Assembly: GCF_902764455.1 (NCBI RefSeq)
Contig: NZ_CACWVY010000036.1
Coordinates: 1-62,904 of the forward strand
Length of the DNA: 62,904 nucleotides
Source: an uncultured Methanobrevibacter sp.
GTDB taxonomy: Archaea; Methanobacteriota; Methanobacteria; Methanobacteriales; Methanobacteriaceae
Direction: 5' to 3'
Shown here: piece by piece, positions 32,595 to 47,832 of the stretch
How the letters are laid out: each line of letters begins with the position of its first letter
Position numbering within the stretch: position 1 is the stretch's first letter
Notes under the pieces: model-generated
Told to the model about the DNA's origin: nothing
Databases searched by the model: none
The model's input: the letters and a program-made list of their open reading frames with translations, nothing else
Made by a program: the position numbers and the translations under genes

Positions 32595-32618
32595 GAAGAT
32601 AACTGTTTAGTTATCTTC
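32595..32618 (-). terminator. Hairpin terminator of nrdD, overlapping the end of the gene
   Basis: GAAGATAACT and AGTTATCTTC form a perfect 10-bp stem with loop GTTT spanning the nrdD stop; the minus strand then runs CACCATTTTTTTTACACC. Confidence 0.7.
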
Positions 32619-34925
32619 AAATCTTCTTCTATCAATTAATTCTTGACGTTTACCTGGGTTCCATCCTCCGGATGCAGATTTTGCACGTCCAACTTGTTGT
32701 ACGTATCCGGTAATTCTGTCATACCATTCTACATCTTCACTTTCACCGCAGGTAGGACAAGTATTGTTTAAACCTTTCATTAAGGTTTTACATTTTAAAC
32801 AGAAGCTTAATGCTGAGCTGTAAGCCCAGAATCCGATATCGGATTTTCTTGCAATTTTGTTAGTTAAACTCATTAATGAATCTGGATCTGAGTAAGATTC
32901 TCCCATGAATGCATGGAAGATGTGTCCACCAGGAGTTAAACTGTGATATTGTTCTTCAATTTTGATTTTTTCGATTAAGGATAATCCGGTATCTACTGGT
33001 ACATGTGAGGAGTTAGTATAGTAGTTAGCATTTCCGTCACCTTGTACGATTGCTTGGTCTCCGAATAGTTTTTTATCGAGAGTTGCAAATCTGTATGCAG
33101 TGGATTCTGCAGGGGTTTGTAAAACAGACCATCTAAGTCCAGTTTCCTCTTTTAATTTTTCAGCTCTGTCATTTACGTATTCGAGACATTTGATACCAAA
33201 TTTGTTGGCTTCAGGATTTTCAATACCTTCACCGAATAAGGATAATAACATTTCGTTAAGTCCGACAAATCCAAAAGATAAGGTTGAATTTTGGATTCTG
33301 TAATAGGAATCTTCAGCAACTTGCTGTTTTAAGAATGGTAAAATGTGGAAATCATTTAAACATTTTAATCCTTGTTCTCTTCTGAGCATTAATGTTTCAG
33401 TTGCAAGATCCATGTATTCATCTAAGTATTCAAATACTTGGGATTCGTCTTTGGATTGGTATCCAATTCTTGGGAAGTTTAAAGTTACATATGCAAGGTT
33501 ACCTGTTCTTAAACAGTCTTGATCCCAGTCACCAGTCCAGGTGTCTTGTAAACAGGTTCTGCAACCCATATAGTTTGCCATTTTTCCTCTGTATTTAGGG
33601 AACATGTTTACAAAGTAGGATGAACCGTATTTTGCAGATAATTCGTGAACTAATCTTATGTCATCTTCGTATTCACTGGTCATTGTTTCTTCACGGAGGG
33701 TGTAAATAGTATTTGGGAATAAATGAGGTTTACCTTCGTTGTCTCCTGCGAGTAATGTTTCAGTGAATGCTCTTTGGATTAATCTGGTTTCTTCTTCAAA
33801 ATCAGCATAGGTTCCAACTACTTTACCTTTTGGTCCGTATGCGGTTTCATCTTTTAAGAAGTCAGGAACTCCGAATTCCAATGCCATACTTGTAAATGGT
33901 ACTTGGGATCCTCTTGCTGCGTAAGCCATGTTTAAGTTGTAAACAAGCATTTGTACTGATTGTTTGATTTCATCGTAGGTTCTTCCTCTTGCAAATGGAG
34001 CAACAAATACGTTCCAAAGGGACATTCCTTGTCCACCGGACATGTTTTGTTGTGCTGCGAGCATGATTTCACCTGTGTGGTTCATTAAAGTTTCCATGTG
34101 GTTTGGTGCACCTGCAATGGATGTGTGGTCACCGGTACCGTCCACTTTAAGTCCGTATTTGATGAAGGTTCTTATATCATGCTGCATACAGTTGAGAGGT
34201 CTTCCTGCGAAGAATTCCAAATCGTGAATGTGAATGTCACCGGACATGTGTGCGTCTGCTAAATGTGCAGGTAACATTTTTAAGAGTGCGTATTGTTTTA
34301 ATGCTTCGTCTGCTACATGTTTGTGAATACTTTCAGGGTTGTGAATCATGTTTGCGTTATCTCTGTTTCCGTTTTCAATTAATGAGGTGATATTGTATAC
34401 CGGAATACCTAAACGAGTGTAACGGCTTCTTAAGTCTTCTAAACCATATTCAATTAATTTTGTGTTAACCATTTCCCTAATCATAGGAGCGGTCAAGTAT
34501 TCAACATTTAATTTTTTAAGTTCTTTCCAGGTTTCAGTAGCAATTTCAAAAGCAGTTTCTTGGCTAGCACCAGTTTCTTCAATTAAGGTGTTAGCGATTT
34601 TTGATAAGTCAAATGCTTCAATAGTGTCTCTGGATGTACGTACTTTTAATTGTGTACTTGCTAAGTATTTATTTGCGATTTCTGGGTCGATATCTTCAAG
34701 GCATTCGTAGACGATTTTTTTAATTTCTTTAGTTTTAATTCCATCATATAACTGAGATACTACTGTAGCTACAATTTTGTCAGATTCAAAGAATGGGGTT
34801 TCCACCATTACTAATGATTTTACTAATTTTTCATAACTGAATCTTTCTCTGATACCGTTATTTTTCTCTACATTTATTTTAACGGTTTCATTTAAATTAT
34901 TTCCTAATTCTGAGATCTTTTCCAT
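32607..34925 (-). CDS. nrdD: Anaerobic ribonucleoside-triphosphate reductase, class III
   Basis: This oxygen-sensitive glycyl radical enzyme makes deoxynucleotides from NTPs (EC 1.1.98.6). It has an N-terminal ATP-cone (about residues 15-105; IRERFSYEKLVKSLVMVE), the large barrel (DIHIHDLEFFAGRPLNCMQHD, AQQNMSGGQGMS), a C-terminal zinc site (CLKC ... CPTC near 710-725), and the glycyl radical region RITGYV with Gly about 740. It has 772 residues from the ATG at 34925, chosen over the GTG at 34934 because GGTG is 8 nt upstream. The activating enzyme NrdG is not in this window. Its promoter is flanked by two unusual palindromes. Confidence 0.94.
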   Translation of the reverse strand: MEKISELGNNLNETVKINVEKNNGIRERFSYEKLVKSLVMVETPFFESDKIVATVVSQLYDGIKTKEIKKIVYECLEDIDPEIANKYLASTQLKVRTSRDTIEAFDLSKIANTLIEETGASQETAFEIATETWKELKKLNVEYLTAPMIREMVNTKLIEYGLEDLRSRYTRLGIPVYNITSLIENGNRDNANMIHNPESIHKHVADEALKQYALLKMLPAHLADAHMSGDIHIHDLEFFAGRPLNCMQHDIRTFIKYGLKVDGTGDHTSIAGAPNHMETLMNHTGEIMLAAQQNMSGGQGMSLWNVFVAPFARGRTYDEIKQSVQMLVYNLNMAYAARGSQVPFTSMALEFGVPDFLKDETAYGPKGKVVGTYADFEEETRLIQRAFTETLLAGDNEGKPHLFPNTIYTLREETMTSEYEDDIRLVHELSAKYGSSYFVNMFPKYRGKMANYMGCRTCLQDTWTGDWDQDCLRTGNLAYVTLNFPRIGYQSKDESQVFEYLDEYMDLATETLMLRREQGLKCLNDFHILPFLKQQVAEDSYYRIQNSTLSFGFVGLNEMLLSLFGEGIENPEANKFGIKCLEYVNDRAEKLKEETGLRWSVLQTPAESTAYRFATLDKKLFGDQAIVQGDGNANYYTNSSHVPVDTGLSLIEKIKIEEQYHSLTPGGHIFHAFMGESYSDPDSLMSLTNKIARKSDIGFWAYSSALSFCLKCKTLMKGLNNTCPTCGESEDVEWYDRITGYVQQVGRAKSASGGWNPGKRQELIDRRRFEDN

Positions 34926-34972
34926 TTCATTCACACCATTTTCCTAGTTTTTAAAAAAATTTATTATCCAAG

Positions 34973-34992
34973 TGAGAGAGAGTCGTCTCTCA
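34973..34992 (-). promoter_or_regulatory. Hairpin in the nrdD leader
   Basis: TGAGAGA and TCTCTCA form a 7-bp stem with a 6-nt loop in the predicted 120-nt nrdD leader, about 50 nt before the ATG. It could affect translation or mRNA stability. Confidence 0.4.
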
Positions 34993-35028
34993 GTTGTTAT
35001 AATCTATGTCAACACATGTATAATTATT

Positions 35029-35046
35029 GTTCGTATACATACGAAC
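35029..35046. promoter_or_regulatory. Palindromic operator candidate at the nrdD start site
   Basis: GTTCGT-ATACAT-ACGAAC is a perfect 6-nt inverted repeat with a 6-nt spacer, and the symmetry extends to 20 bp (35028-35047). It lies about 26 nt downstream of the nrdD TATA box, so it should cover the transcription start. Confidence 0.65.
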
Positions 35047-35071
35047 ATATAGTTAATACATAGTTTTTCAT

Positions 35072-35083
35072 GGTATATAAATC
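35072..35083 (-). promoter_or_regulatory. TATA box of nrdD
   Basis: The minus strand reads ATTTATATACC, a strong archaeal TATA element lying exactly between two identical-arm palindromes. It predicts a start near 35047 and a leader of about 120 nt. Confidence 0.6.
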
Positions 35084-35101
35084 GTTCGTCTTATTACGAA
35101 C
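35084..35101. promoter_or_regulatory. Palindromic operator candidate upstream of the nrdD TATA box
   Basis: GTTCGT-CTTATT-ACGAAC has the same arms and the same 6-nt spacing as the site at 35029, with a different spacer sequence. It abuts the TATA box on the BRE side. The two sites are 55 nt apart, about five helical turns. Confidence 0.65.
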
Positions 35102-35146: not shown

Positions 35147-35168
35147 TCAAATGTCCGAGAGCATTTGA
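35147..35168 (-). terminator. Hairpin terminator of polC
   Basis: TCAAATG and CATTTGA form a 7-bp stem with an 8-nt loop, followed by TTTTTATTAG on the minus strand. Part of it is the 19-nt repeat also found at 47814. Confidence 0.55.
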
Positions 35169-35176
35169 GAAGTAAT
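35158..35176. repeat. 19-nt repeat, copy 1 (after polC)
   Basis: AGAGCATTTGAGAAGTAAT occurs here, 4 nt past the polC stop, and again at 47814-47832, 3 nt past the stop of an unrelated regulator gene. Confidence 0.7.
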
Positions 35177-35180
35177 CTCA

Positions 35181-38100
35181 CTAGAAGAAAACATCCAGTG
35201 AGCTTTGTTTGGACTTGTCACTTTCAAACAGCGAGTTAATACCAAACTCTTGAATTTCTAAACGTTGTCTTAAGTATGGAGATATAGGGTACCTGTTAAT
35301 CAGTTCCTGTGAAATTTCAAGGTATTTTGTAACAGACCCTTTTGAAACTGACAGGATTAAATTACCTCCACATCTGCACTTTCCGCTGAGGGGTATTCTG
35401 CGGTATTTTGATCCGCACTTGGTGCATCTTACCTTCTGTTTAGAAAAGGCTCTTGAATTGCCCATGATGTCTGGCAAGAAATGAGAAGACAATACCTTTT
35501 CAACAACTCCTCTTTGATCAACTGCCCTGATTTTCTCAGCAAGACTAATTTGAGCTTCAACTTTTTCTCGCATTGATGGTAAGGTTTTATAAAGACAAAT
35601 TGTAGGTCCTGCATGGATATTTGATGTGTGATGGGAAAACATCAGTCCTTCGTATTGCTGCGGAGTTCCCAGATGCATTTCCACATTGTCAATGTATTCC
35701 AAAACCTCAGCAGGTTTTAAAGGGCTGTATGTTTTTTCATAAAATTCTACAGGGAATCTTTCAAAGATATCCAGGTTGTGAGATTCGTCATCTATCTCTT
35801 CCGGGTCAATTCTTGAAGATAAAACTAAAGGAGCATCCATACTTCCTCCTCTAGTATTTGGTAAGTATGATTTTGAAAAGTTAATTAAAGCATCCAAAAG
35901 CAGCATGACTGCATCTTCGTCACTATCACAGTTTCTACGTTTTGCTGAATGGAAATAAGGGTGGGCATAACATCCCAATGCCTTTGTAAATCCTATAATT
36001 CTTCCAAGCACTCCTGCTGATGTGTGAGGTGCAAGACCTGCAACAAGATGTCCGATTAAATCGCTTTTCTCCTTAACATTATAGAAGGGTTCCATATCAT
36101 AAAATCTTGTAAGTTCGTCATCAATGAATTGTGCGGTTCTAAGCAGATATTCTCCGCAATTGTCGGAAATTACAATATCCTGTACTCTAAGTTCTATAAT
36201 TTGCTCTTCATTTTCAATAGGATTTCCATAACAATCTTTTTCATAGCCCATTTCTTTGAGCTTTTCAACAGTAACTCCGATTTCCTTTGGGATAAAATGT
36301 GTCAATGGCAAATCTGTTGAATCGTGTCGTATTGTTCCATCCTTAAATGTAAACACTTCATTTTTGGATCTTAATATTCCTTTTTCAAGAGGTTCGGCCA
36401 GTTTTGATTCGGAAATCATACCTACTACGCCCTTAACTTCGTCAACTCTTCTTACTTTAACGTTATCTGATGCTTTTTTAAGCATGGATGCGAGAGGTAT
36501 GTTTTTTTCACTGGCAGCACCGATTTCAGTCGGACTTCCGCATTTCGGACAAAGAGAATTGTTTGAACTGATTCCGCAGGAAGGATTTGTACATTTCCTT
36601 CTTGCTAGCTGCACTTTGATACTTCCTTTTTTAGCTGCTGTTGCTATCAGTCTTCTGGAACCTCCGAAATTTCCAATTGGGAACAGTCCATGTGGTGCAG
36701 GTCTCATAAGTCTTTCTTTAGATTTTTCAGGCCTGCCGACACGTGTACCGATGTATGCCGGAGCTTTATTTTTAATTTCAATAGGTGAAACTTCATTAAC
36801 GGCTTCTATTGTTGTGTCCTTTTCAGGCAGCCTTTTGGATAATGTCACCAAAAGGGCATATGAATGGTCCTTGTCTATAATGATTTTGCCGTCACGGACA
36901 ATGTGAGGAACGCCGATAATTTCCAAAACTCTTTTAGGATAAGATAAGTCTAATTTCAATTCCTCATTCGGTTTATAATTTAATTTGGCAGATTCTATTA
37001 AATCAATCAATGAATTCAAATCTTCAATGGTAACGTCATTATAACAGTAAGTGTATTTTGGATGAAGAGGAATATCATATTTTTTTGATAATGTCAGTGC
37101 TTCAACTGAACTTAAATATTCGTATTCAAGCTTATGCAAATCCAGATCGTTATTGTCCTTGTCAAAGTTCTCACTTTGCATCAGCAGTTGAATCCACCAT
37201 TCTTCAACCCATCCTGACGGGTATAACGGCTGGTTGTTTCTTAAAAATTCTCCGAATGCAACAAGCATGTCACCTAAAAAGAGTATTTCAACGACATCCT
37301 TTTTAACTTCACGTGCTTTTCTAACGCTGTCAAGAATTAAAACATCACCATTTTTAAGCTTAACAGTAGGTCCTTCAATGGAATCTACAGGAACAACACA
37401 GTTACCTTTTCCGGGATATTCAATCTTAAGCTGTGTTCCGACGGCTAAAAATTCAAGCAGTGCCATTGTTGCAGGGTGAACTCCCATGGTAGCAAGGCCG
37501 GTATTTCTTGATCTTCCGTATCTTAATCTGAATGCTCCCTTTTCTGAAGGATATCCTAAAATAGGCCTTCCTCCAATAATATCTTGAATATATTTAGGTT
37601 CGCTTACAATATCTGAATCTCCGCTGTCATCTCCTGTGGAATCATCTTTTTTAGGTTTTGAATACTCGGTAAGCCATTCCCAGTCGAGCCCTAATTTTTT
37701 AGATATTTTATGAATCTTTTTGGATTTCTGGATAACTCCTTCAACCATCGCAAGCAGTGCTCCCCCACGGATGTTGTTGGTTTCAACACGCTCCAAATCC
37801 CTGTGTGAAACTTCTACCTGGTCGGTCTGTTCTCCTGAAACTTCCACGGGGATGTGGTTAGCGGCAAATCTCACTTCTTCTGGTGTTGGTGAGTATTGCA
37901 GGTTTGTAACTTCGGACTCATAAAGTTCAACTTCTTCCACATATCTTTCGATTTCATCTTCAATAGGTTTGAATGCATCAATATTTATAGCCTGTCTGAT
38001 TTTATCTCCCAGAAGCACAGCTAAAGCAGCAGCAGTACCTCCTGCACTTCTGATAGGGCCTGCAAAGTAAACTCCAATGTATTTTGTTCCATCAAAATTT

Positions 38101-38480
38101 TCTTTGATTTTAACATCTGAAATACCTTCTAACGGTGCAGCTACTACTCCTTCTGTTAAAATTGCAAGAGCAGTTCTTAAACCTTGGTCACACCTTTGCT
38201 CCTCATTCCAATCTGCCTTTTCACCGGTAAGTTCAAATTTTCCTGATGCAATTTCGGCTGCAATTTCAAATGCAACAGACTCTCTGTCCATATCATTTTC
38301 CAATTCCTTAATACGTGCTGCCACACCTTCAGGGCCAACCAGCCCTTCTACTCTTTCAGCTAAATCCTTTGCAAGGGGCACTTCTGTTTCTGTTTCAACA
38401 TCCAATCCTTTGGACCTTGCCTTATTAGCTATGTCGTATAGGTGATGGGTTTCTTTTTCTAATCTATCAAAATAATCCAT
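35181..38480 (-). CDS. polC: DNA polymerase II (PolD) large subunit DP2
   Basis: This is the catalytic subunit of the euryarchaeal replicative polymerase D, which works with the exonuclease subunit DP1 (not in this window). It has 1099 residues from the ATG at 38480; the upstream TTG at 38492 is less likely. Features include GVYFAGPIRSAGGTAAALAV near residue 140, zinc-binding pairs (CTNPSCG ... CPKCGSP and CTKCGSKYRRIPLSGKCRCG), HPYFHSAKRRNCDSDEDA with the catalytic acidic residues, and a C-terminal QSSLDVFF, a textbook PCNA-interacting box. There is no intein. It is divergent from a coiled-coil membrane protein gene. Confidence 0.96.
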   Translation of the reverse strand: MDYFDRLEKETHHLYDIANKARSKGLDVETETEVPLAKDLAERVEGLVGPEGVAARIKELENDMDRESVAFEIAAEIASGKFELTGEKADWNEEQRCDQGLRTALAILTEGVVAAPLEGISDVKIKENFDGTKYIGVYFAGPIRSAGGTAAALAVLLGDKIRQAINIDAFKPIEDEIERYVEEVELYESEVTNLQYSPTPEEVRFAANHIPVEVSGEQTDQVEVSHRDLERVETNNIRGGALLAMVEGVIQKSKKIHKISKKLGLDWEWLTEYSKPKKDDSTGDDSGDSDIVSEPKYIQDIIGGRPILGYPSEKGAFRLRYGRSRNTGLATMGVHPATMALLEFLAVGTQLKIEYPGKGNCVVPVDSIEGPTVKLKNGDVLILDSVRKAREVKKDVVEILFLGDMLVAFGEFLRNNQPLYPSGWVEEWWIQLLMQSENFDKDNNDLDLHKLEYEYLSSVEALTLSKKYDIPLHPKYTYCYNDVTIEDLNSLIDLIESAKLNYKPNEELKLDLSYPKRVLEIIGVPHIVRDGKIIIDKDHSYALLVTLSKRLPEKDTTIEAVNEVSPIEIKNKAPAYIGTRVGRPEKSKERLMRPAPHGLFPIGNFGGSRRLIATAAKKGSIKVQLARRKCTNPSCGISSNNSLCPKCGSPTEIGAASEKNIPLASMLKKASDNVKVRRVDEVKGVVGMISESKLAEPLEKGILRSKNEVFTFKDGTIRHDSTDLPLTHFIPKEIGVTVEKLKEMGYEKDCYGNPIENEEQIIELRVQDIVISDNCGEYLLRTAQFIDDELTRFYDMEPFYNVKEKSDLIGHLVAGLAPHTSAGVLGRIIGFTKALGCYAHPYFHSAKRRNCDSDEDAVMLLLDALINFSKSYLPNTRGGSMDAPLVLSSRIDPEEIDDESHNLDIFERFPVEFYEKTYSPLKPAEVLEYIDNVEMHLGTPQQYEGLMFSHHTSNIHAGPTICLYKTLPSMREKVEAQISLAEKIRAVDQRGVVEKVLSSHFLPDIMGNSRAFSKQKVRCTKCGSKYRRIPLSGKCRCGGNLILSVSKGSVTKYLEISQELINRYPISPYLRQRLEIQEFGINSLFESDKSKQSSLDVFF

Positions 38481-38553
38481 GGTATCGCCCAAGTTACAAA
38501 ATTAATTCAGTATAATATAGTTAGATTTTCATATTATTTTAAGATTTTCCAAT

Positions 38554-47813: not shown

Positions 47814-47832
47814 AGAGCATTTGAGAAGTAAT
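47814..47832. repeat. 19-nt repeat, copy 2 (after the ModE/LysR-like gene)
   Basis: AGAGCATTTGAGAAGTAAT, identical to 35158-35176, lies 3 nt past the regulator stop codon. Here the pairing arm that makes a hairpin after polC is missing. Confidence 0.7.

Follow-up and report, generated by a model that had tools for sequence, protein, structure and literature searches.

Two palindromes upstream of nrdD, the gene for a class III (anaerobic) ribonucleoside-triphosphate reductase, raise the question of which regulator acts at this promoter and how its sites are arranged. The window, a stretch of 62,904 nucleotides of Methanobrevibacter DNA, carries nrdD on the minus strand at 32607..34934 (TIGR02487, 553 bits; PF13597 and PF03477), and the encoded enzyme includes an ATP cone. 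The best relatives of nrdD were 94-98% identical and came mainly from uncultured Methanobrevibacter; the source organism is a Methanobrevibacter of the rumen/gut type. No class I or class II ribonucleotide reductase (RNR) large chain was found in the genome, and NrdD is probably its sole RNR. The gene on the 5′ side of nrdD encodes the large subunit of DNA polymerase II (polC, 35181..38492, minus strand; assigned by reading the translation). Since this upstream neighbor is co-directional and no divergent gene uses the same region, the 246-bp polC-nrdD intergenic region serves nrdD only. The open reading frame list places the nrdD start at GTG 34934, whereas relatives begin at the equivalent of ATG 34925 (ATGGAAAA), just 5′ of which a GGTG is conserved. 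ATG 34925 appears more likely to be the true start, and GTG 34934 (window 34923-34936, minus strand) is probably a piece of the nrdD ribosome-binding region.

Both palindromes in the intergenic region were confirmed as given in a preliminary description of this DNA, and their 6-nt arms are perfect. The predicted nrdD-proximal operator GTTCGTATACATACGAAC (35029..35046, minus strand; GTTCGTATGTATACGAAC on the nrdD strand) contains an exact TTCGTA-N4-TACGAA, and the predicted distal operator GTTCGTCTTATTACGAAC (35084..35101, minus strand; GTTCGTAATAAGACGAAC on the nrdD strand) has one mismatch to this pattern. The relaxed form TTCG-N7-9-CGAA is also fitted by both boxes. A genome scan for further copies, as proposed in the preliminary description, located TTCGT-N6-ACGAA at only two places in 2.75 Mb, namely the nrdD pair, with one match for the reversed control pattern. 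The wider pattern GTTCGN8CGAAC has three copies genome-wide, two of them at nrdD. The third (contig C42, L249 1502-1519) lies within ATCTACTACTTTTAGTGAAATTTGTTCG, a sequence that is common to integrase-associated regions elsewhere (L247, L251) and is probably part of a mobile element. Other sites of this pattern that lie in or near an integrase-associated element were rejected as operators.

MsvR is a redox-sensing repressor specific to methanogens that combines an ArsR-type HTH with a V4R domain. The operator published for MsvR is TTCGTAN4TACGAA, generalized to TTCGN7-9CGAA, and MsvR boxes overlap BRE/TATA or the start site, with repression occurring by exclusion of TBP/TFB (PMC3729527). Methanothermobacter MsvR represses when reduced and the Methanosarcina acetivorans protein binds only when reduced (PMC3729527, PMC7278568). 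The nrdD boxes have the same half-site GTTCGTA/TACGAAC and the same TTCGTA-N4-TACGAA as the operators of PmsvR/fpaA from Methanothermobacter thermautotrophicus and PmsvR from M. acetivorans, and they resemble these in their position relative to BRE/TATA, in the presence of several boxes per promoter and in the presence of a cognate MsvR. The match of the predicted operators to MsvR sites is strong at the level of sequence. By eye the flanks of both boxes are AT-rich, which is a requirement for MsvR binding in M. acetivorans. The differences are that nrdD would be the target here, in place of msvR or the oxidative-stress operon of fpaA, and that complete palindromes abut the TATA in two tandem operator+TATA modules about 55 bp apart.

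The only V4R protein encoded in the genome is an MsvR (NF053755, 304.5 bits at a cut-off of 220) with ArsR-type HTH and V4R domains; its recognition helix GKSKSTVSxHL and V4R cysteines are common to the Methanothermobacter-like MsvR, and msvR adjoins cobI (read from the translation) both here and in a Methanothermobacter-like genome. The earlier proposal of a separate, unknown archaeal regulator is less likely, since the sites agree with the operator published for MsvR and one such protein is encoded in the genome. What acts at nrdD appears to be a known regulator with an unreported target; the literature that we searched gave no account of transcriptional RNR control in methanogens or of a link between MsvR and nrdD.

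In bacteria the NrdR boxes ahead of nrd operons are likewise paired palindromic repressor sites at an RNR gene. The NrdR box motif differs from the nrdD palindromes, in agreement with the preliminary description, and no NrdR passes the family cut-off in this genome. The sole NrdR match scored 25.5 bits against a threshold of 124.65, and NrdR control was rejected. The NrpR nitrogen operators of methanogens (GGAA-N6-TTCC) are also archaeal palindromes with a 6-nt spacer in methanogen promoters, but their arms and target differ from those of the nrdD boxes. A broad MsvR regulon was considered with the relaxed TTCGN7-9CGAA, which gave 29 matches in the genome versus 79 in the control and is uninformative.

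The preliminary description had named the nrdD upstream regions of relatives as the place to look for the motif, and there it is kept. Among 150 genomes of the order nrdD was detected in 141, and 110 upstream regions were extracted. Within the genus the box is present in 57 of 58 nrdD upstream regions, at most about 135 nt from the gene, and a second box stands 54-59 bp (mode 55) upstream of the first in 35 of the 58. The arms are near-invariant and the spacers variable. A search for GTTCGN8CGAAC in 23 congeneric genomes gave 46 sites, 36 of which are upstream of nrdD (control total 11), and all 23 genomes have at least one such site upstream of nrdD. Boxes with 0-1 mismatch also precede nrdD in three other sampled genera (g2, g4, g15); in genera g13 and g3 the forms are weaker or isolated. 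Further GTTCGN8CGAAC sites in g4, near trxB between convergent genes or within coding sequence, were discarded as operators. The same applies to TTTGTTCG..CGAACAAA-type palindromes seen in four genomes (L243, L245, L246, L248) between cdc48 and its upstream gene, which is tyrA-like in G034, G101 and G124 and another gene in G044. These follow the upstream gene far from the cdc48 TATA, a position that suggests a 3′-end hairpin rather than an operator.

Each predicted operator at nrdD is directly followed by a TATA-like element. The distal TATA element TTTATATA (35074..35081, minus strand) has the consensus CGAACAATTTATATAC in the 35 twin-box genomes, and the proximal TATA-like element AATTATAC (35018..35025, minus strand) is kept in all box-bearing genomes. 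When promoters of the genus are aligned on the boxes, the proximal box runs on into CGAACAATAATTATACA and the distal one into CGAACAATTTATATAC, and both boxes end 2-4 bp ahead of the TATA-like elements in the same register, which is conserved in the genus. The TATA between the boxes had been taken as the sole strong TATA of this promoter, a view contradicted by the second element in the same conserved register. Single-box species retain the start-proximal module, often with a stronger TATA (TATATATAC), and many have TATATATAC or TTTATATAC. The unit box-AAT-TATA is repeated, and where there is one box it is the start-proximal module that remains. The pair is therefore best taken as a tandem of duplicated operator+TATA modules, of which the start-proximal one is universal, and this describes the arrangement better than the earlier picture of two boxes bracketing one TATA. 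The proximal box would as a consequence also cover the site at which transcription from the distal TATA should begin.

Archaeal transcription is expected to begin about 28 nt after the TATA. About 28 nt past the proximal TATA begins a 5′-leader hairpin, TGAGAGA/TCTCTCA (34973..34992, minus strand; z about −2.8), which thus lies at the predicted start site. It begins 35-39 nt past the proximal box in most genomes and 46-49 nt past it in one subclade, and it is lacking in a few short-leader species. When 45 leaders were aligned with almost no gaps, excluding 12 genomes whose leaders are short or dissimilar, 89% of the cells paired, compared with a mean of 0.80 and a maximum of 0.84 in column shuffles. 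The third pair of the hairpin is G-C in 33 leaders, T-A in 9 and C-G in 1, and another pair varies as A-T, G-C and C-G, where the counts include related sequences and refer to pairs picked by inspection in short aligned leader segments. The hairpin noticed earlier at 34973 is real and conserved, with some compensatory changes, and its placement and conservation support a genuine promoter role for the proximal module. Rfam matches were at chance level only, and assignment of the leader to a known RNA family was rejected.

The half-site also occurs at msvR itself. The msvR/fpaA intergenic region of a single-contig Methanothermobacter-like genome has GTTCGTATATCATCGAAT and then TACGAACTTCTATATAAT, the same 7-bp half-site just before a TATA. 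In Methanothermobacter-like genomes and in some other genera the msvR promoters have full boxes, and twin boxes 54 bp apart were found in three other genera (G035, G072, G078). The msvR promoters of the Methanobrevibacter genus have conserved half-sites in place of the full inverted repeat, mostly as an everted pair, whose relaxed form ACGAACAGTTCGT occurs in 31 of 39; many also have TACGAAC-TATTTTATATG. The everted pair ACGAACAGTTCGTA (ACGAAC-A-GTTCGT) is located at about −146 from msvR, for example in L016 at 2378-2417. In the window genome the msvR promoter has one intact half-site, and the everted pair is changed symmetrically to ACAAAC-A-GTTTGT.

We consider it probable that the twin palindromes are MsvR operators, at which MsvR keeps TBP/TFB from the promoter, represses nrdD and lifts this repression on oxidation. 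Binding, repression and the redox response at nrdD are inferred by analogy with the characterized MsvR proteins. In the proposed mechanism an MsvR dimer on the operator abutting the BRE side of the TATA-like element would block TBP/TFB, and reduced MsvR would hold nrdD at a restrained level. Repression would have to be partial because NrdD is probably the only RNR, which would make the gene essential. Once the V4R cysteines are oxidized, MsvR would bind less tightly and nrdD transcription would rise, by which oxygen-damaged glycyl-radical enzyme could be replaced and dNTPs for repair provided. The preliminary description had proposed that a dimeric repressor controls access of TBP/TFB, and conservation of the motif in relatives supports such a reading. 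Oxygen inactivates class III RNR. With a redox-sensing repressor at its promoter, dNTP supply in the dominant methanogens of gut and rumen would be coupled to oxygen exposure, and the results suggest a redox sensor controlling DNA-precursor supply in Methanobrevibacter.

Several points count against MsvR control of nrdD. A search for expression data turned up none. The in vitro model of MsvR does not show the partial repression that an essential gene would need under reducing conditions. The target of MsvR in Methanothermobacter is fpaA, and the box is absent from the nrdD upstream regions of the Methanothermobacter-like genus g18. The msvR promoter of the window genome retains just the one intact half-site. 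In M. acetivorans the motif alone is insufficient for binding, as seen with rpoK, and the motif by itself is no guarantee of MsvR binding (PMC3729527). Furthermore, a V4R protein was not detected in G002 (about 99% complete, 300 contigs), and the nrdD promoter of this genome still has a one-mismatch site. The latter would fit a different, uncharacterized winged-helix repressor dedicated to nrdD, as would a regulon that seemingly consists of nrdD only, in contrast to Methanothermobacter, where the target is the fpaA operon. Resemblance of the sites to the MsvR box would then be convergent or reflect a shared ancestral operator. We regard such a repressor as unlikely in view of a 7-bp half-site that is identical to that of a verified MsvR promoter, in nearly the same TATA register, and that recurs in the msvR promoters of the genus.

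MsvR might also bind and respond mainly to a small V4R ligand tied to the dNTP or growth state, which would make it a functional analogue of the bacterial NrdR. In line with this, no conserved promoter target besides nrdD was found in the genus, and nrdD probably codes for the sole RNR. Conservation in this MsvR of the cysteines that are key to redox sensing in other MsvR proteins leaves such a ligand signal a rather improbable explanation. A role of the palindromes in RNA, as transcribed leader hairpins instead of operators, is hardly credible, even if a start from the distal TATA would place part of the proximal palindrome in the transcript. The distal palindrome precedes both TATA elements, the arms show sequence conservation and not covariation, the TATA register is fixed, and the real leader hairpin is a separate element. 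Redox-responsive repression by MsvR is the reading we prefer. With somewhat more doubt than confidence we extend it to the possibility that MsvR in the Methanobrevibacter lineage was rewired from the fpaA oxidative-stress operon to become a near-dedicated controller of the sole RNR, a redox-coupled archaeal counterpart of NrdR that works through duplicated operator+TATA modules and a 5′-terminal mRNA hairpin.

Two further observations were made during the searches. In G023 (L242 1511-1560) an nrdD-type module, a box followed by AATAATTATACATCT, precedes an MBL-fold-like reading frame that adjoins DNA methyltransferase-like and Vsr-like genes (names read from translations), as if a defense island had borrowed an nrdD-type promoter. 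A dispersed 18-nt sequence, TTACTTNTCAAATGCTCT, has 28 genome copies at up to one mismatch; its reversed control has no copy. Its window copies (35158-35175 and 47814-47831, minus strand) are both located just past stop codons. Most of the genus retains the copy after polC, and a copy stands directly ahead of an integrase-like gene in L247 and L251, which come from other genomes.
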